64,000 nucleotides of DNA, taken from positions 124,001 to 188,000 of the forward strand of contig NZ_JAOANW010000012.1 of NCBI RefSeq assembly GCF_026162365.1. Reading direction: 5' to 3'. This DNA is from Nitratireductor luteus. Its GTDB lineage: Bacteria; Pseudomonadota; Alphaproteobacteria; Rhizobiales; Rhizobiaceae. Below the pieces are notes generated by a model. The model searched no databases, had not been told where the DNA came from, and worked only from the letters and a program-made list of their open reading frames with translations. Every line of letters starts with the position of its first letter. Positions within the stretch are counted from its first letter, which is position 1. Shown piece by piece: positions 16,629-28,091 of this stretch. Position numbers and translations under genes: made by a program.

Positions 16629-16826
16629 ATGTTCACAATCATCGCCAATGCGCTTGGCATCAACCGGGCTTTCGTCTGGATCGGCGCGGCCGTGCTCGCC
16701 GGGGCGGTCTGGGGCGCCTATGCGTTCATCAAACACCGGGGCGCCGACGAGGTTGCCAGCGCCTCCCTGTCCGGGACCATTGTCTATTTCTGGGACGTAT
16801 TCATACGCGCCTTGCGCGGCATCTAG
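16629..16826 (+). CDS. Small phage-type membrane protein
   Basis: A 65-aa protein, MFTIIANALGINRAFVWIGA..., with one membrane segment at about 15-35 and the KHRGADE turn common in small spanin- or holin-associated phage proteins. GGAGG lies nine bases before the ATG. Its C-terminal 22 codons lie in a 138-bp segment repeated at 21641. It continues the lysis-module remnant. It may be cut short and re-ended, since family members usually continue as a long periplasmic helix. Confidence 0.5.
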   Translation: MFTIIANALGINRAFVWIGAAVLAGAVWGAYAFIKHRGADEVASASLSGTIVYFWDVFIRALRGI

Positions 16827-16896
16827 ATTCGTAGACAGCAGAGACTGGATGTCCGCGTATGGACGAGACGGAACAAATTGTTGCTGCAGCGGAAGC
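16759..16896. repeat. 138-bp direct repeat, copy 1
   Basis: This segment is repeated with roughly 85-90 percent identity by eye at 21641-21779, in the same orientation and 4.9 kb away. It covers the end of the 65-aa protein gene (SLSGTIVY...RALRGI) and the start of a short frame MDETEQIVAAAEAP. Confidence 0.85.
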
Positions 16897-16970
16897 CCCT
16901 ACAGTGTTCCATGGTCTTCCCCGGTGAGAGCACGAACTGAACCTGCCGGGTTCCAATTCGTTTACAAAAC

Positions 16971-18002
16971 ATGCCTGCTGTCGAAGCCTTGCCTCTGCCG
17001 ATTATCGCCACCGTTTTCTTTGGGGCAACCGTGGTAATCGTGTTCGCCGGCACCCACGTAGCCCGGATAGCGGATCAATTGGCCGACCGTACCGGCCTTG
17101 GGGAGATTGTCGCCGGAGCACTATTCGTCGGCGCCAGCACGTCGCTTCCGGGAGCAATCGCCTCGATCACCGCGGCCGCCCAAAACCACCCGGGTCTGGC
17201 CATTGGCAACGCATTGGGCGGTCTCACCGCGCAGACTGCCTTTCTAGCGGTCGCGGATCTCGCCTATCGACGGGCAAATCTGGAGCACGCGGCAGCGAGT
17301 GTAACTGGTCTGGTCCAGGGAGTCCTACTGGTGACACTCCTCACTATTCCTCTGATTGCGGCTTCCGAGCCGCCGATCATTATGTGGGGCATTCATCCCG
17401 CCTCGCTCCTCACCTTCCTGGTTTATGCGTTCGGTATCAGGCTGCTCGGCCGGATTCGCGATGAGCCGATGTGGCGGCCGGTCTGGACGGCACAAACGAA
17501 AGAGGAGATTTCTGACGACAAGCCGGAGGGTAGAGCCGAGTCAACGATCTCCCTTTGGCGCGGCTTCGCTGTCTATGCCGTCTTGACCGCAGTGGCCGGC
17601 TTCACCGTTGCGGAGGCCGGTATCGCCATCGTTGCGAAGACCGGCATTTCGTCGACAGTGATAGGTACCGTCTTCACGGCGATTGCGACTTCGCTTCCGG
17701 AGCTGGTGACGGCCATTGCCGCCGTAAGAATCGGTGCCGTCAGCCTCGCCGTCGGGGACGTTATTGGTGGCAACGCTTTCGAGGTCCTATTCCTTGGCTT
17801 TTCCGACATGGTCTACGAAGGATCCATCTACGCCGAGTTCACTCCAGACGATTTCACGACCGCCCTGATCGCGATACTTATGACGGGCGTCATATTACTG
17901 GGCCTACTCAGGCGCGAGCGCAGCGGCTTCGCTGGCATTGGCTTCGAAAGCACCATCGTGCTGGTTCTGTACGCTGGCTCGCTGGTTCTCGTGATGACAT
18001 GA
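16971..18002 (+). CDS. Sodium/calcium exchanger family antiporter
   Basis: A 343-aa CaCA-superfamily (YrbG-like) membrane protein with about ten helices in two inverted repeats. The alpha-repeats are visible: GASTSLPGAIASITAAAQN with GNALGG in the first half, TSLPELVTAIAAVRIGA with GDVIGGNAFEVLF in the second. The first repeat has LPGAI where LPELv is usual, losing the first Glu, so ion coupling may be altered. There is no obvious ribosome-binding site before ATG 16971. It appears intact, and is the only complete transporter of normal size in the island. Confidence 0.82.
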   Translation: MPAVEALPLPIIATVFFGATVVIVFAGTHVARIADQLADRTGLGEIVAGALFVGASTSLPGAIASITAAAQNHPGLAIGNALGGLTAQTAFLAVADLAYRRANLEHAAASVTGLVQGVLLVTLLTIPLIAASEPPIIMWGIHPASLLTFLVYAFGIRLLGRIRDEPMWRPVWTAQTKEEISDDKPEGRAESTISLWRGFAVYAVLTAVAGFTVAEAGIAIVAKTGISSTVIGTVFTAIATSLPELVTAIAAVRIGAVSLAVGDVIGGNAFEVLFLGFSDMVYEGSIYAEFTPDDFTTALIAILMTGVILLGLLRRERSGFAGIGFESTIVLVLYAGSLVLVMT

Positions 18003-18470: not shown

Positions 18471-18890
18471 ATGGACGACCATAAGGACAGAGCGCGGATT
18501 GAGGTTTTGACGGTCTCGGACAGAGGCCGTCGGCGACGCTGGGCGACTGCTGAGAAGGTGCGGATTGTCGAGGAGAGCTTTCGGCCGGATGTTTCAGCCA
18601 GCGAGATTGCACGGCGGCATGAGATCTCCCGTTCTCAGCTTTACGAATGGCGGCACAGATATCGCCATGGTCTGCTTGGTGATGCTCCGATCTTTTCGCC
18701 ATTGATCCCGGTCGCGGCGGACGAGGGCCAGGCTCACTTGTCCTGTGATGCGGGTTCATTGCCCTCGAGCGCGTCGGAGCAGCCGGCGCTGGTCATCGAT
18801 ATGAAGGAAGGCCCGAGCATCCGGGTTCCCTCCGGTTTCGATATCGATGCCGTTGTCCGTCTGGTCAGGGGCCTGGAGAGGAAAGGGTGA
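18471..18890 (+). CDS. tnpA: IS66 accessory protein TnpA
   Basis: A 139-aa protein with an N-terminal helix-turn-helix of the IS66 Orf1/IS3-Orf A type (about 20-70: RRRRWATAEKVRIVEESFRP, SEIARRHEISRSQLYEWRHR). The C-terminal part ends in the IS66-specific VPSGFDIDAVVRLVRGLE. It probably binds the element ends. It overlaps tnpB by four bases. Confidence 0.9.
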   Translation: MDDHKDRARIEVLTVSDRGRRRRWATAEKVRIVEESFRPDVSASEIARRHEISRSQLYEWRHRYRHGLLGDAPIFSPLIPVAADEGQAHLSCDAGSLPSSASEQPALVIDMKEGPSIRVPSGFDIDAVVRLVRGLERKG

Positions 18891-19237
18891 TTGCCTTTCC
18901 CGCAGGAGTGAAGGTGTGGATCGCCGGCGGGGCGACCGACATGCGCCGCGGGATGAACACGCTGGCGCTGCAGGTACAGGAGGGATTGGGGCGCGATCCG
19001 CATGCAGGGGAGATCTTCTGCTTTCGCGGTCGGCGCGGCGATCTGGTGAAGCTTCTATGGCATGATGGGGTGGGCATATCGCTGTACAGCAAGCGGCTCG
19101 AGGCGGGGAAGTTCATCTGGCCGGTGAGCCGTCCAGGCGATGCGGTGTCGATCTCAGCGGCGCAGCTTTCTTATCTTCTTGAGGGCATTGACTGGCGCAA
19201 CCCACGTTGGACACAGCGTCCCGCAAAGGCCGGATAA
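18887..19237 (+). CDS. tnpB: IS66 accessory protein TnpB
   Basis: A 116-aa IS66 Orf2 protein with the family signature VWIAGGATDMRRGMNTLALQ near the N-terminus, then FCFRGRRGDLVKLLWHDG and LEAGKFIWP. It is required with TnpA and TnpC for transposition of this family; its biochemical role is not established. It starts with a GTG-type codon overlapping the tnpA stop. Confidence 0.92.
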   Translation: MIAFPAGVKVWIAGGATDMRRGMNTLALQVQEGLGRDPHAGEIFCFRGRRGDLVKLLWHDGVGISLYSKRLEAGKFIWPVSRPGDAVSISAAQLSYLLEGIDWRNPRWTQRPAKAG

Positions 19238-19297
19238 ACCTCTTTCATAGTACTGTTTTTACTGGGCTTTTAAGCTCTGGCATGGTAGGCAGACGCC

Positions 19298-20929
19298 ATG
19301 TCAGACGGCGCTTCCGAGATCGACAGATTGCGAACTGAACTTGCCGCCTCGCAGGCCCGTGCCGAAGCGGCCGAGAACGCATTGGCGCAGGCGCACGCGA
19401 CCGTGTCCTGCTCGGAAGCGATGATCAAGGAGCTCAAGCTTGAGATCGCCAAGCTGCGGCGCGAACACTATGGCAAATCCTCCGAACGGCATTCCCGGTT
19501 GATCGACCAGTTGGAATTACAGCTGGAGGAGTTTGAAGCCGCCGCAACCGAGGATGAGATCGCGGCAGCTAAGGCGAGCTCCGGGATTACGACCGTCCGC
19601 ACCTTCACGCGTCGCCGCCCGGCGCGCAAACCATTCCCCGAGCATCTGCCGCGCGAGCGGGTGGTTGTTGAGGCACCTGCGGCTTGTTCGTGCTGCGGTT
19701 CATCGCGCATCGTGAAGATGGGCGAGGATATCACCGAGACGCTGGAAGTGATCCCGCGCCAATGGAAGGTCATCCAGACGGTGCGCGAGAAGTTCACGTG
19801 TCGGGATTGCGAGAAGATCTCGCAGCCGCCGGCTCCGTATCACGCCACGCCGCGAGGATGGGCAGGCCCGAACCTTTTGGCCACCATTCTGTTCGAGAAG
19901 TTCGGTCAGCATCAGCCCCTGAACCGGCAGGCCGAGCGCTATGCCCGAGAGGGTGTCGACCTCAGCCTTTCGACCCTGGCCGACCAGGTCGGGGCATGCG
20001 CCGCGGCGCTGGAGCCGATCCATGCGTTGATCAAGGCTCATGTTCTTGCCGCCGAGCGACTGCATGGCGACGACACCACGGTGCCGCTGCTGGCTCGGGG
20101 CGGGACGAAGACTGCGCGATTGTGGACCTATGTGCGCGACGACCGGCCCTTTGCCGGCGGAGCCCCACCGGCGGCCCTGTTCCACTTCTCGTCAGACCGC
20201 GAGAAGGTACACCCGAACCGGCATTTGACCGGCTGGCAGGGCATCCTGCAGGCCGATGCCTATGGCGGATATAACGACCTCTACCGGGACGGGCGCGAAC
20301 CGGGACCGATCACCAGCGCGCTGTGCTGGAGTCACGCGCGCAGGAAGTTCTTCGTGCTCGCCGACATTGCCGGCAATGTCCGCAAGGGCAAACCGGCCCA
20401 TCAGATCTCACCGGTCGCGCTGGAGGCCGTGAAGCGGATCGACGCGATCTTCGACATCGAGCGCGGGATCAATGGCATGGAGGCCGCGGCCCGTCTTCAG
20501 GCGCGCCGGCAGCTTTCCGCTCCGCTGGTCGGCAAGCTCGGCGACTGGCTCAAGGCCGAGCACGCGCAAATGTCGAAGCACAATCCTGTCGCCAAGGCGA
20601 TCAATTACATGTTTGAGAAGGACCGCTGGGCGGCCTTCACCGCCTTCCTTGAGGATGGCCGGATTTGCCTCAGCAACAATGCCGCGGAAAGAGCCCTCAG
20701 AGGTATCGCCCTCGGCCGCAAGGCGTGGCTCTTCGCTGGTTCTGAACGCGGCGGGCACCGCGCTGCTTTCATGTACACCATGATTATGACGGCAAAACTC
20801 AACGCCATCGATCCACAGGCCTGGCTGGCCGATGTCCTGGCCCACTTGCCCAACACGCCCCTGTCGCGCCTGCCCGACCTGCTCCCATGGAACTGGCGGC
20901 AGAACGCTGCGCAGCAGAAAGCAGCCTGA
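19298..20929 (+). CDS. tnpC: IS66 transposase TnpC
   Basis: A 543-aa DDE transposase. It has an N-terminal coiled coil (about 5-50), a KLRREHYGKSSERHSRL motif, and a zinc-binding region (CSCCGSS at about 129, CRDCEKI at about 169). In the catalytic core the three acidic residues lie in LHGDDTTVPLL, QADAYGGYND and NNAAERALRG. The length is normal for the family and no frame damage is seen. Its TGA overlaps the start of the next gene (TGATG at 20927-20931). Confidence 0.95.
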   Translation: MSDGASEIDRLRTELAASQARAEAAENALAQAHATVSCSEAMIKELKLEIAKLRREHYGKSSERHSRLIDQLELQLEEFEAAATEDEIAAAKASSGITTVRTFTRRRPARKPFPEHLPRERVVVEAPAACSCCGSSRIVKMGEDITETLEVIPRQWKVIQTVREKFTCRDCEKISQPPAPYHATPRGWAGPNLLATILFEKFGQHQPLNRQAERYAREGVDLSLSTLADQVGACAAALEPIHALIKAHVLAAERLHGDDTTVPLLARGGTKTARLWTYVRDDRPFAGGAPPAALFHFSSDREKVHPNRHLTGWQGILQADAYGGYNDLYRDGREPGPITSALCWSHARRKFFVLADIAGNVRKGKPAHQISPVALEAVKRIDAIFDIERGINGMEAAARLQARRQLSAPLVGKLGDWLKAEHAQMSKHNPVAKAINYMFEKDRWAAFTAFLEDGRICLSNNAAERALRGIALGRKAWLFAGSERGGHRAAFMYTMIMTAKLNAIDPQAWLADVLAHLPNTPLSRLPDLLPWNWRQNAAQQKAA

Positions 20930-21388: not shown

Positions 21389-21640
21389 GACCGGCGGCTT
21401 TTTCAGATTCATGGTGTCTTGGCAAAGTGCCCCTCTGAGCTTGCAAACGGGGGGCCGAGCTTATGGTTCCATCTTGCGCGTCGGGTAGATCGAGGGGCGA
21501 CAAAGCGACGACGCGGCGGTGCAGCGGCAAATTCTCAATACGCTGACCCCGCGAAGATATCGCGACGTTGAAGGCGCAGCGCCCATGAACTGCGCAGATG
21601 CTATGACACATCGGCGCGCTATTCGTCGTAGGCGCTACCG

Positions 21641-21779
21641 GCGCCTCGCTGTCCGGGACCATCGTCTATTACTGGGACGAGTTCATACGCGCCTTGCGCG
21701 GCATTTAGATTCGTCAGATAGCAGAGAATGGATGTCCGCGTATGGACGAGACGGGACCAATTTTTGCAGCAGCGGAAGT
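21641..21779. repeat. 138-bp direct repeat, copy 2
   Basis: This is the partner of 16759-16896. It encodes a similar tail (SLSGTIVYYWDEFIRALRGI) without the N-terminal part of the gene, then MDETGPIFAAAEVLVTVLEA, which stays open to a stop at about 21841. The rest of the stretch from 21389 to 21855 holds no recognisable gene. Confidence 0.85.
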
Positions 21780-21855
21780 CCTTGTGACGGTCCTAGAAGC
21801 AGTGACAGCCAGGGACGGTTCGTGGCTCAGCGCCTCGTCGTGAAGAAGGCGCGAC

Positions 21856-22329: not shown

Positions 22330-22358
22330 TTGTCGCATTTTAAGAAAACTCTTATAGT
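22330..22358 (+). promoter_or_regulatory. Sigma70-type promoter of Gly-rich gene
   Basis: A -35 box TTGTCG (22330-22335), 17-bp spacer and -10 box TATAGT (22353-22358). Transcription would begin near 22365, giving a leader of about 78 bases. The -10 box matches consensus at five of six positions. Confidence 0.5.
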
Positions 22359-22442
22359 CTAGATAGCCAGAATCTATTAATATTTGTGAGCATGGCCGGA
22401 ATCTGGTTTCTGCCAAGCAACAATATTCGGAGGTGACATACT

Positions 22443-22835
22443 ATGTTCAGTGGTCTGTTGGGCGGGATTCTCTCGCCTGTTAGTGGGGTCGGCGTCGGGC
22501 TGAAGCCCGTTACCGACACGGTTCAAGGCGTGGCCGATACTGCAGGGGGAATCGGAGACCAGCTTTCTCCGGGGTTCACTCACTGGGGCGCGACGACGGG
22601 CAACATTTCCGGCACAAGTGGTGCCGTGGAGGATCTTCTTTCCGGCCTCGGAGAGGGCAGCATCAGTTCCGCGGGCATGGACGTGTATGACGACGTGTTT
22701 GCTCCAGGAGGCATCATCAACAACCTGGGTGATGGCTATGGCCTCGGACTCGAGGGCCTGCTTGGCACTGCTCTCGGCACGGTAGATGGCGTGACCGGTC
22801 CCGGTGGCGGTTTGCTTGACGGTCTTCTGAGCTAA
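22443..22835 (+). CDS. Gly-rich orphan protein, 130 aa
   Basis: The protein begins MFSGLLGGILSPVSGVGVGL. It is about a quarter glycine, acidic, with one Lys, no Arg and no Cys. Repeating hydrophobic pieces occur (GLLGGIL, GLEGLLGTALGTV, GGLLDGLLS). There is no signal peptide, although the N-terminal GLLGG resembles double-glycine or type I secreted leaders. A perfect GGAGGTGA ribosome-binding site lies six bases before the ATG, a good promoter lies upstream and a terminator 26 bases after the stop, so this looks like a deliberately expressed single-gene unit. It has no recognised family; a small secreted, adhesive or bacteriocin-like role is conceivable. Confidence 0.65.
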   Translation: MFSGLLGGILSPVSGVGVGLKPVTDTVQGVADTAGGIGDQLSPGFTHWGATTGNISGTSGAVEDLLSGLGEGSISSAGMDVYDDVFAPGGIINNLGDGYGLGLEGLLGTALGTVDGVTGPGGGLLDGLLS

Positions 22836-22861
22836 GCGCATCCGTAGAGCGCGCAATCTAT

Positions 22862-22891
22862 CCCGCTGGCCCCACGGCTGGCGGGGTTTTT
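22862..22891 (+). terminator. Terminator after Gly-rich gene
   Basis: A 10-bp stem with two G-T pairs (22862-22871 with 22876-22885), loop CCAC, then G and five T. Confidence 0.8.
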
Positions 22892-23318: not shown

Positions 23319-23472
23319 GCTGAACGACCCGAAATCTAGGCTCAGATGGGGTATTCGGCCTGGTGCCTGGACCCTGTCATTGAGCTTGGTATGAAGGCGG
23401 CGCTGCGCTCCTGGCTGATGGTAAAACGTGGTCTGCACGCAACAGCTACAAGCATCAGGAAAGGAACGCAGC

Positions 23473-24510
23473 ATGAAGCATTATGCCGGGCTCGACGTGT
23501 CGGTGAAAGAGACGTCGGTTTGCATCGTTGATGAGACGGGCAAGATTTGCCGTGAGGTGAAGGCTGTCAGCCATCCCGACGATCTCATTGCGGTTCTGAA
23601 GACTTCTGGGTTGCAGATCGAGCGGATCGGGCTTGAGGCCGGACCTTTGTCGCAATGGCTGTTCGAAGGTCTGGCCAGGGCCGGCTTGCCGGTGATCTGC
23701 ATCGAAACCCGCCACACTAAGGCGTTTCTCAAGGCGCAGCCGAACAAGAGCGACCGCAACGACGCCCGCGGCATTGCCCAGATGATGCGCGTGAACCTGT
23801 ATCGTCCGGTGCATGTAAAGACGCTGACCAGTCAGAAGCGCCGGGCATTGCTAACGGCGCGAAAGCTGCTGCAGGAAAAGGCCCTGGCCATCGAGAACGA
23901 CATCCGCGGCTTGTTGCGTAATTTCGGCCTTAAGGTCGGCGTGGTCGGAGCGGTGAAATTCGACGCGCGCATCCGCGAACTCGTCGAAGGATATTTAGAA
24001 CTGGCTGAAATTATCGAGCCGCTGCTTGATGCGCGCCGGAAGCTGCGGGAACATTTTGCAGTTCTGCATCGCAAACTTCTATTGATCGCCAAAAACGATG
24101 AGGTTTGTCGGCGCTTGATGACGATCCCCGGTGTTGGTCCCGTCGTGGCGGTAGCCTATACCGCCACCATCGACATTCCACAGCGGTTCAGAAACTCAAA
24201 GGCGGTAGGTCCGATCCTGGGGTTGACGCCTGTACTCAACCAGTCCGGCGAAAGCCACCGCGTTGGTCGCATCTCACTGTGTGGGGACGGCATGATGCGA
24301 ACGTTGCTCTATGAAGCAGCGCAGGTACTTCTCACCCGGGTCGCAAAGTGGTCCTGGTTGAAAGCCTGGGCGATGAACGTCGCCAAACGGCGTGGCGCCC
24401 AAAAGGCCATTGTGGCACTCGCTCGCCGACTCGCCGTCATCATGCATCGTATGTGGAGTGACGGCACTGAATTCTGCTGGACAAGGGAACGCATCCCAGC
24501 AGCCATCTGA
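23473..24510 (+). CDS. IS110-family transposase
   Basis: A 345-aa transposase. The N-terminal DEDD RuvC-like domain shows YAGLDVSVKETSVCIVDETG and the NKSDRNDARGIAQMM signature. The C-terminal Transposase_20 domain shows MTIPGVGPVVAVAYTATID, LGLTPVLNQSGESHRVGRIS and the GDGMMRTLLYEAAQVLL segment. The start ATG 23473 has AAGGAA upstream. IS110 elements lack obvious inverted repeats and insert through an RNA-guided recombinase mechanism, so I could not fix the ends; the bridge RNA would be expected in the flank upstream of 23473. Both flanks are remnant DNA. Confidence 0.93.
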   Translation: MKHYAGLDVSVKETSVCIVDETGKICREVKAVSHPDDLIAVLKTSGLQIERIGLEAGPLSQWLFEGLARAGLPVICIETRHTKAFLKAQPNKSDRNDARGIAQMMRVNLYRPVHVKTLTSQKRRALLTARKLLQEKALAIENDIRGLLRNFGLKVGVVGAVKFDARIRELVEGYLELAEIIEPLLDARRKLREHFAVLHRKLLLIAKNDEVCRRLMTIPGVGPVVAVAYTATIDIPQRFRNSKAVGPILGLTPVLNQSGESHRVGRISLCGDGMMRTLLYEAAQVLLTRVAKWSWLKAWAMNVAKRRGAQKAIVALARRLAVIMHRMWSDGTEFCWTRERIPAAI

Positions 24511-24850
24511 CCAGTCTGCAAACACGGAAAAACAAAGTTCCGCCGACCAGTGGAAAGATGTCCTTCGCGGGACGATGGGTGAGGTGAGTTCGCAATAGGT
24601 CCGGTACCGGTCCACATACCAGGATCAGGACGCGGCTCAGATTGTTCCGCCTCATCCTTCCGACCCCATCAAGGGAGGGCTCGCGGGCCCATCCCGAAGA
24701 GAAGCAAGACCCCGCAAAAGACATTGACGCGGTGAATTTGGTGCAGTTCGAGTGCGCTTGACTTCCACACGCCGAATAGAGAAGGACCTATTAATTTTCT
24801 TGCGGATCGGTTTTCGGTCTGATTCACAGTCTTCATTGAAGGAGGCCCTG
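24511..24850. other. Gene-free stretch between IS110 and IS5 genes
   Basis: No credible coding frame. It should contain the right end of the IS110 element and the left end of the IS5 element, but I cannot place either with confidence. Confidence 0.5.
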
Positions 24851-25605
24851 ATGAGTGATTTGTTTCTGCTGAGCGAGCGCCAGATGGCGCGGATATCGCC
24901 GCATTTTCCGCTGTCGCATGGCGTTCCGCGGGTTGACGACCGGCGGGTGGTGAGTGGCATCGTCTATGTGATCAGGAACGGGCTGCAGTGGAAGGACGCA
25001 CCGAGCGGGTATGGCCCGCACAAGACGCTCTACAACCGCTTCATCCGCTGGAGCCGGCTCGGAGTGTTCGACCGCATCTTCGCTGCGCTCGCCGGCGAAG
25101 CGCCAGAGCCCGAGCGCATCATGATCGACGCCACCCATCTGAAGGCCCACCGCACCGCGGCGAGCCTGCTTAAAAAGGGGATGTTCCCCGTCGTATCGGG
25201 CGAACGAAAGGCGGGCTGAACTCCAAGCTGCATGCCGTTTGCGACGCCGAGGGCCGGCCGCTGGTGCTGCTTCTGAGCGAAGGGCAGATGAGCGACCACA
25301 AGGGCGCCAGGCTCTTGCTCGACGTGCTGCCGCCCGCCGACAGCCTGATCGGCGACAAAGGCTACGACAGCAATTGGTTCCGAAACGCGCTTGCCGACAG
25401 AGGCATCGAGCCCTGCATCCCGCCGACCAAGAGCCGCAAGCAACCGATCGACTACGACAAGGGGCTCTACCGACAGCGCCACAGAATTGAGAACATGTTC
25501 GGCAAGCTCAAGGACTGGCGACGCGTTGCCACCCGCTACGACCGATGCGCCCACACCTTCTTCTCGGCAATCTGCATCGCCGCTGCCGTCATCTTCTGGC
25601 TTTGA
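24851..25605 (+). CDS. IS5-family transposase (two frames, -1 shift)
   Basis: The gene is split into two overlapping frames, as in the IS427 group. OrfA (24851-25219) begins MSDLFLLSERQMARISPHFP and has the DUF4096-type domain and IMIDATHLKAHR, with the first catalytic Asp. After CTTAAAAAGGGG (25169-25180), a -1 shift continues as DVPRRIGRTKGGLNSKLHAV and runs to 25605. This second part holds the second Asp (IGDKGYDSNWF) and the final Glu (RHRIENMFGKLKDWRR). GAAGGAGG precedes the start. Shifted translation gives about 250 residues, a normal length, so the element may be functional. Confidence 0.88.
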
Positions 25606-25621: not shown

Positions 25622-25954
25622 CTAGGCCCTTGCGCTGAGCGTAATCATGCCGATGGCGACAATCGCCAACACGATTCCAGCGGTCTGGATTGGTGACAAG
25701 CGTTCGTCGAAGATCACAAGAGCGATGATGTTGACCGCGACCAGTTGGATCACGGCCGAGAGGCTCAGCGCGACTCCCATTCCGACCTCTCGAATCAGCC
25801 GAAGCATGATCAGGTTTCCGAGCGTGTAGAGGGCCAAGGTGAGCCCAAGCCAAAACCAACTATTTTGTGACAATGCCCAGGCCTTTGCGGAACTGGCGGC
25901 AGCCAGAAAGGCCACAGTGGAGGCGCCAATGAGCGCGAGGTTGGCGGGGTTCAT
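25622..25954 (-). CDS. SMR/EamA-like four-helix membrane protein
   Basis: A 110-aa protein with four hydrophobic segments, starting MNPANLALIGASTVAFLAAA and ending LSPIQTAGIVLAIVAIGMIT. Its length and helix count match small multidrug resistance or half-size EamA transporters, which act as dimers in the inner membrane. The conserved membrane-embedded Glu of EmrE (in helix 1) is absent, so drug/proton exchange as in EmrE is unlikely. The stop lies 17 bases from the IS5 gene end, so that insertion stopped just short of it. The ribosome-binding site is weak. Confidence 0.65.
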   Translation of the reverse strand: MNPANLALIGASTVAFLAAASSAKAWALSQNSWFWLGLTLALYTLGNLIMLRLIREVGMGVALSLSAVIQLVAVNIIALVIFDERLSPIQTAGIVLAIVAIGMITLSARA

Positions 25955-27322: not shown

Positions 27323-27712
27323 TCAGCCCTTCCGCCGCTCTTTCTTGGCTGCTTTCCGCGCCGCATACCGAGCGTCACGAGCGGCTTTCTGCTCGTTCAA
27401 CAATAGGGCCTGGCGTTCTGCCTCTTCAGCCGCAAGAGCCGCAGCGGCGTTGGCTTCTTCCAATTCTGCAAGTCGTTCGGCTTCCACGATACGAGCAGCC
27501 TCTGCCGCCAGTTCCGCTTCACGAGCCTTCTTGGCCTCCCTTTGCGCGGCTATTCGTGCGGCCCTCGCTTTGGCCATTTCATCCCGTGCTGCTTTCCGTT
27601 CAGCAATAGCGGGGTCGCTGGCTGCCGCTAATGCCCTCTGCATCATTGCCTGTTTCGCTGCTGATGCATCGCTCTGCCGCTGTTTAAAGTCCGGGGATTT
27701 GTTGGCGCGCAT
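27323..27712 (-). CDS. DUF6481-like Ala/Arg/Glu-rich helical protein
   Basis: A 129-aa highly charged protein, about a third alanine, starting MRANKSPDFKQRQSDASAAK and ending in a Lys/Arg-rich tail (KKERRKG). It should form a single long helix or coiled coil from about residue 40 to 120. It resembles the small DUF6481 proteins widespread in rhizobia, whose role is unknown; a nucleic-acid-binding role is suggested only by the basic tail. GGAGAATGA overlaps the start region. The long Ser/Ala frame on the other strand is its antisense. Confidence 0.6.
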   Translation of the reverse strand: MRANKSPDFKQRQSDASAAKQAMMQRALAAASDPAIAERKAARDEMAKARAARIAAQREAKKAREAELAAEAARIVEAERLAELEEANAAAALAAEEAERQALLLNEQKAARDARYAARKAAKKERRKG

Positions 27713-28091
27713 TCATTCTCCGATTGTGGTGATGGTGATTTTAGGGATTGCGCTCAATGGCGCCTTTCCACGTCAAAACTCTCGCTCTCCGGAACGCAGC
27801 CGGTATGGCTAAAGCTATCGCAGACCAGAGGGAAGAGGCGAAGAAGCTGTTTAGACGGGTTTCAGGTTTGGCTCCAGGGAATATTTTGAATTATTTACGG
27901 TTCCATCGACCCAGGGAGGGAAGGGCGAGCACCGTGAACAGCCAGCGAACATCTTGCTACCATTTTGCTACCGAATTCGGTAGCACGAGCGGATACAAAT
28001 TAGGACAGTGCAGTAAGTTTTTGGCGTAAGTAGATGATAAGGCAGGATACACCACAACAGACGGGCACGGGAAGTGACGGGCATAACCGAA
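27713..28091. other. Right island end, non-coding
   Basis: No supported gene. It contains the 19-bp repeat and palindrome at 27958-27984 and the run-up to the right att repeat. Confidence 0.6.
27958..27984. repeat. 19-bp repeat plus 18-bp palindrome near right end
   Basis: The copy of TACCATTTTGCTACCGAAT is at 27958-27976. Its second half extends into the perfect palindrome GCTACCGAATTCGGTAGC (27967-27984), and an additional GCTACC lies at 27956-27961. The arrangement of direct and inverted GCTACC units resembles recombinase-binding sites. Confidence 0.6.

Follow-up and report, generated by a model that had tools for sequence, protein, structure and literature searches.

What might a small glycine-rich protein do when its gene stands alone among insertion sequences? 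Such a gene is found in a stretch of 64,000 nucleotides from Nitratireductor luteus (contig NZ_JAOANW010000012.1, positions 124,001 to 188,000 of the forward strand), hereafter the window, to whose first letter all window coordinates below refer. Homologues of the gene were found beside genes for type I secretion, in a cassette whose products are an ABC protein of the PrtD type, an adaptor of the HlyD type and a long repetitive protein, here named C0. The existence of the gene family, its linkage to this cassette, the co-occurrence with C0, the constraint on the coding sequence, the open frames of the exporter genes and the presence of a TolC candidate in the genome were all established directly. 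The small protein is probably a non-RTX cargo of type I secretion that builds a surface layer or matrix in concert with C0 and a glycan; the window copy would be exported in trans.

A small gene and its rare family

The gene and its accompanying signals are the following.

22443..22835 (stop included), plus strand: gene of the 130-residue glycine-rich protein, with an ATG start; orphan paralogue of the type I secretion-linked family
22330..22358, plus strand: sigma70-like promoter TTGTCG-17-TATAGT, 9 of 12 matches
22429..22436, plus strand: Shine-Dalgarno sequence GGAGGTGA, read directly in the sequence
22860..22887, plus strand: intrinsic terminator stem-loop with a 12-pair stem and a 4-base loop, then a T run (TTTTATT)

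The initial annotation had described an acidic, glycine-rich gene with full expression signals, and this description is borne out: the open reading frame (ORF), a strong Shine-Dalgarno sequence (GGAGG lying 9 nt from the ATG) and the terminator are present, and the protein contains 26% Gly, 13 Asp and Glu against 1 Lys or Arg, and no Cys. The sigma70 promoter, which had been called good, is a moderate match and plausible, but not strong, one promoter-like site being seen between 22000 and 23200 against 0.3 expected from shuffled sequences. Terminator-like sites numbered two against 1.3 expected, a number that is not significant alone; the one at 22860-22887 has the longer stem of the two and lies directly 3' of the stop. 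The reported repetition of GLLG-type motifs was found to amount to just two exact copies, against 0.16 expected (44 of 5000 shuffles reach 2), and some relatives are more plainly repetitive, with up to 15 G[LIV][LIVF]G. The C-terminal residues of the window protein are GGGLLDGLLS.

The ORF at 22443-22835 (plus strand) is a real gene. Between the window copy and a second copy in the same genome, 44, 31 and 71 differences were counted at sense codon positions 1, 2 and 3, respectively. Because the sense third position is by register the antisense first position, and the differences pile up there, constraint acts on the sense frame. Third positions are also the most frequent site of differences from the relatives. 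Comparison of the window copy with eight relatives gave ratios of nonsynonymous to synonymous substitution rates (dN/dS) of 0.18-0.36, which are rough because dS is 1.2-2.8. A 159-residue antisense ORF (22377-22856, minus strand) overlaps the gene, and antisense ORFs recur in the relatives (cluster C3).

Together with 15 relatives, the window copy makes up a family of 16 members that is real, rare and apparently undescribed, the window copy being a stray member. Single members are the window copy, the second copy (G000:C4:94811-95185, minus strand; 56% identical to the window protein) and those of Chelativorans xinjiangense, Brucella daejeonensis, Chelativorans intermedius, genome G125 and P. 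saliphilus, whereas Mesorhizobium sp. J18, Nitratireductor sp. ZSWI3 and Paracoccus onubensis have three members each, those of P. onubensis being spread over two strains. A first search gave matches in 7 of 101 genomes, its own included; two weak ones, L007 (31%, E 0.0034) and L008 (35%, E 0.0039), were later excluded from the family. The small protein was found in 6 of 394 genomes of the taxonomic family by an alignment-based search. A scan of a named-genome collection with one peptide pattern, which may miss more distant members, yielded ten loci in B. daejeonensis, C. xinjiangense, C. intermedius, Mesorhizobium sp. J18 (three), P. onubensis (three, in two strains) and Nitratireductor sp. 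ZSWI3, and a plasmid search yielded one record with a member, that of P. saliphilus. The only match in an order-wide sample was the own genome (1 of 397), and in a sample of one P. onubensis genome's family each of two profiles matched that genome itself (1 of 198). No relative was found among the 25 and 158 candidate stretches from viral contigs.

The alignment holds 15 of the 16 members, with ZSWI3b (GTG start) left out, and its 14 relatives are 39-57% identical to the window protein. An N-terminal region, a core and a hydrophobic C terminus are common to the aligned members, the core reading TTGNL...GDLTGAV.DVY.D..GPGG..NNL..G.GLG.EGLLG..LGTADG. All 16 members lack Cys and carry an acidic net charge (-10 to -22), and their maximum 19-residue hydropathy of 1.07-1.56 stays under 1.8, the line chosen for membrane helices. 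Lengths range from 108 to 185 residues, the C-terminal tails being lengthened by GLLG-type repeats and ending in LLG, LLS or LL. As had been supposed from the outset, the family seems undescribed: the window protein has no match in Pfam, NCBIfam or PHROGs, 15 members have none in Pfam, and the best E of a PDB profile search was 0.25, which is not meaningful. Literature searches, to which subscription papers were mostly closed, turned up nothing on the small-protein family.

The type I secretion cassette and the putative partner protein C0

Inspection of homologous loci for secretion genes, which the initial annotation had proposed, was positive. Clustering of ORFs over 17 stretches showed that the small gene is accompanied by three gene groups, namely the PrtD-type ABC protein, the HlyD-type adaptor and C0. 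Nine loci, from eight species (two P. onubensis strains among them), combine a member with all three, C0 of L020 extending past the contig end; the ABC proteins of the other eight are 69-95% identical to that of the own genome. In six of the nine (L020, L021, L023, L039, L040 and L041), the small gene immediately precedes the ABC gene and shares its strand, and the annotated record of P. saliphilus shows this arrangement. One pyruvyl transferase gene lies between the two in B. daejeonensis. The two Chelativorans loci have a divergent small gene at a distance of about 4 kb, the interval being occupied by glycan-type genes and a PS_pyruv_trans gene. A PS_pyruv_trans gene was found in eight of the nine cassette loci, the ninth (L020) being a 5.4-kb contig. 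In the ZSWI3 cluster, ZSWI3b follows C0 at about 4 kb, and the contig of J18c also carries a C0 end about 5 kb distant. No cassette was found within about 10 kb of the window copy, J18b, ZSWI3c, the P. onubensis Merri copy (L026) or the C. intermedius copy.

The gene had been called an orphan, which is correct within the window but not for the genome, since the contig of the second copy (C4) carries ABC, HlyD and C0 genes in a glycan cluster. The cassette ABC protein of 574 residues scored 611 bits against TIGR01842 (cut-off 510), its membrane domain starting at residue 33, and the adaptor scored 334 bits against TIGR01843 (cut-off 209). A TolC candidate is encoded at G000:C3:95567-96790 (333 bits, cut-off 225). 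Four PrtD-type proteins of the genome score over the cut-off, that of the cassette being one of them. The early suggestion that the protein may be secreted or surface-located is supported by homologues whose genes adjoin those of a type I secretion system. Proteins with an uncleaved C-terminal signal are exported by a PrtD-type ABC protein, an HlyD adaptor and TolC, and many known type I cargoes with a C-terminal signal are RTX proteins. The motif GGxGxD is absent in 15 of the 16 members, with one match in Ponu3, and an RTX identity was rejected because GGxGxDxUx repeats were not found in the members.

In C0 (L011 17490-19103), the N-terminal part has a basic stretch; further features are the conserved segment TAGALGLGITLLEQE, acidic repeats and a C-terminal region that is conserved and contains GSLLH. 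C0 has no curated family match. Its length varies from 400 to 687 residues, its repeats are rich in Val, Asp, Gly and Leu, and its C termini are mostly GSLLHGLI or similar. The C0 C terminus was detected in 7 of the 394 genomes of the taxonomic family, including all six with the small protein (Fisher p 1.4e-12, which overstates the evidence, as the genomes are related and contributed in part to both profiles). Genomes G125 and G253 were detected by profile A1, and G050 by profile A4, though not part of those profiles. Among the 10 genomes or records with a member, only C. intermedius lacks a match to this C terminus, the other 9 having one; therefore, every unlinked copy except that of C. intermedius shares its genome with C0. 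The C0 N terminus matched only the own genome in a class-wide sample (1 of 289), and a plasmid search with the own C0 and with an 81-residue ORF of genome G401 gave no match.

Proposed function and competing explanations

How could these components work together? The small, acidic, Cys-free and Gly/Leu-rich cargo would be passed through the dedicated PrtD-type ABC protein and HlyD adaptor and a TolC encoded elsewhere. Once outside, it would combine with the long, acidic, repetitive C0 into a surface layer or extracellular matrix. A glycan from the neighbouring genes, which include one for a polysaccharide pyruvyl transferase family protein, would join this matrix; it is because glycan genes neighbour the cassette that a surface matrix role is proposed. 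The window copy would be a second cargo gene, parted from the cassette and lying among insertion sequences with its own promoter-like site, Shine-Dalgarno sequence and terminator, and its product would be exported in trans via the cassette on contig C4. Export, a C-terminal signal, use in trans and a matrix role are thus what we infer for the small protein. A wider proposal, which we advance as tentative, is an undescribed alphaproteobacterial surface-matrix cassette with one exporter, two non-RTX cargoes sharing a C-terminal export code, and a pyruvylated glycan, in which the short cargo would be modular: duplicated, moved off as trans-acting orphans, lengthened by GLLG repeats, or replaced.

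Known systems offer partial parallels, drawn here from the accessible parts of the cited papers. Class 3 type I substrates, whose signal is C-terminal and whose exporter lacks an extra N-terminal domain (PMC8861453), resemble the family in the exporter lacking C39, the dispensability of RTX repeats, the absence of Cys, acidity and hydrophobic C-terminal residues, whereas the family is distinguished by its length of only 108-185 residues, its Gly/Leu richness, the lack of a curated-library match and its LLG, LLS or LL ends. BapA of Paracoccus denitrificans (PMC5588039), needed for biofilm, offers a model for C0, being likewise a long acidic repetitive protein adjoining type I genes; compared by description only, it counts 891 Asp-Ala repeats over its 2,211 residues, against the 400-687 residues of C0, and the accessible text describes no small glycine-rich partner. 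In the biofilm system of Desulfovibrio vulgaris (PMC5646257), one type I exporter likewise serves two cargoes thought to be structural proteins of the biofilm, but, again by description only, the organism is a different one and either cargo suffices. Rhizobium PrsDE (PMC2275737), with adhesins and glycanases among its cargo, is a precedent for trans export of unlinked cargo, although that cargo is RTX, cadherin-like or enzymatic, as judged from its description.

The initial annotation had also considered a bacteriocin-like protein. The nearest model would be the contact-dependent glycine-zipper bacteriocins CdzC and CdzD of Caulobacter, small glycine-rich toxins that leave by type I export, are retained on the surface and kill neighbours. 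In the accessible account of these proteins (PMC5380434), several traits recur here: a small glycine-rich protein beside ABC and HlyD genes, a patchy distribution, insertion sequences (here near the window copy) and multiple copies in some genomes. In every one of the 16 members, GxxxG is more frequent than the mean of the shuffles; the GxxxGxxxG count is attained by fewer than 50 of 1000 shuffles in two members (J18a and J18b) and by 52-69 in four more. The Cdz length range of 60-151 residues accommodates the window protein, with four of the 16 members exceeding it (159, 159, 164 and 185 residues). A Cdz leader ends in G[G/A/S], and a GG does lie near the N terminus of the small protein, but the linked exporter lacks a peptidase domain: the membrane domain of the 574-residue ABC protein starts at residue 33, leaving no room for a C39 peptidase. 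In addition, Gly, Ala, Val and Ile make up 40-49% of the members (45% in the window protein) against 75% of mature CdzC/D in the same account (PMC5380434), the three GxxxGxxxG of the window protein compare with 2.1 in shuffles (356 of 1000 reach 3) and are interrupted by charged residues, and the family C terminus is hydrophobic, not polar. Cdz systems have a small transmembrane immunity protein nearby; two small ORFs scored as multi-transmembrane were seen within 9 kb of the window copy (25622-25954, minus strand; 27345-27812, plus strand), yet they lie beyond the insertion sequences and in no conserved group among the matches listed. Among ORFs of 35-250 residues within 9 kb at the 16 loci, those conserved in at least three lineages either belong to the family or, judging from where they lie, overlap larger genes of the cassette, and no conserved small multi-transmembrane ORF was seen among the matches listed (up to 12 per group). 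The Cdz loci differ from those of the family, where a long repeat protein and glycan genes stand instead, and a surface or matrix role suits these neighbouring glycan genes better than a bacteriocin does. Membership in the Cdz type was rejected on the missing C39 peptidase, the interrupted zippers and the lack of a conserved immunity ORF among the matches listed. The bacteriocin suggestion is not supported on the same points, and we regard a Cdz-like bacteriocin as an improbable rival; killing by other means may still be compatible with the data.

Could the small protein instead assist the secretion or glycan machinery, for instance as a cytoplasmic chaperone, a regulator or a plug, with its cassette position incidental? 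Its small size, its conserved core and the hairpins found 3' of linked and unlinked copies alike would agree with this, whereas up to three copies per genome, off-cassette copies, GLLG-lengthened tails and an almost complete lack of basic residues look more like structural cargo, which makes an accessory role unlikely. It is also hardly probable that the window copy is silent, a relic which insertion sequences stranded recently and which is out of use. The copy is isolated among insertion sequences with no partner genes nearby, and its DNA similarity to other loci is confined to the gene itself; against this, the frame is open, dN/dS is low, a third-position bias against relatives is seen at dS above 1, and the promoter-like site, Shine-Dalgarno sequence and terminator are all in place. 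Recent silencing may nevertheless have occurred.

Several observations weigh against a cargo of the cassette exported in trans. Structure prediction of the small protein was poor, with a mean predicted local distance difference test score (pLDDT) of 54.7 and a predicted template modelling score (pTM) of 0.34, and is uninformative on the fold. The last two residues of the small proteins (LG, LS or LL) are unlike the [FLI][VAI] of RTX cargo given in the accessible text of PMC8861453. No cassette gene lies within about 10 kb of the window copy, contig C2 has no PrtD-type match above the cut-off, and one of the three other PrtD-type ABC proteins of the genome could be its exporter. C. intermedius (G009, L022) has a copy with no C0 match in the genome and no cassette within 10 kb, a counterexample that is not among the matches of the 394-genome sample. 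We infer the export of C0 as well. Finally, the small cargo is not obligatory: G401, the seventh genome with C0, has the ABC protein (76%), HlyD (67%) and C0, and no small-family member was found in its cassette.

The place directly upstream of the G401 ABC gene is taken by the 81-residue ORF (L058:5558-5803), which has no visible similarity to the family and no Pfam match; its presence in the cargo slot suggests that the cargo is swappable. It ends in VHIA and its C0 in HHVA, both without the LL ending, whereas the other pairs combine LLG or LL with GSLLHGLI-like ends. This likeness is a lead only, being one case of four residues. Behind C0 of G401 lies an ORF (L058 10957-11940) with 35% Gly, GGASIGG-type repeats and a signal-peptide-like N terminus.

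If the cargo and matrix proposal is right, a compact non-RTX cargo family with one exporter clade, a partner and glycan genes would be a testable model of the C-terminal signal, and stranded cargo genes would be one for trans secretion. The whole would represent a mobile surface-coat module found in Chelativorans and relatives and also in Paracoccus.

Surroundings of the gene in the window

The stretch around the gene is rich in insertion sequences, and the debris mentioned in the initial annotation is evident in the insertion-sequence genes on both sides.

18471-20929: IS66 gene set, upstream of the gene
23428-24510: IS110-type transposase, downstream of the gene
24752-25605: IS4/5-type transposase, split over two separate ORFs, downstream of the gene

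Three small ORFs between the gene and these insertion-sequence genes have no Pfam family match. The minus-strand ORF at 25622-25954, about 2.8 kb behind the gene and past the transposases, encodes 110 residues with two predicted membrane stretches. A 144-bp direct repeat (21638-21781 and 16756-16898; 89.6% identical) flanks the IS66 genes with one copy on each side, and a gene of the Sodium/calcium exchanger family was found at 16971-18002.
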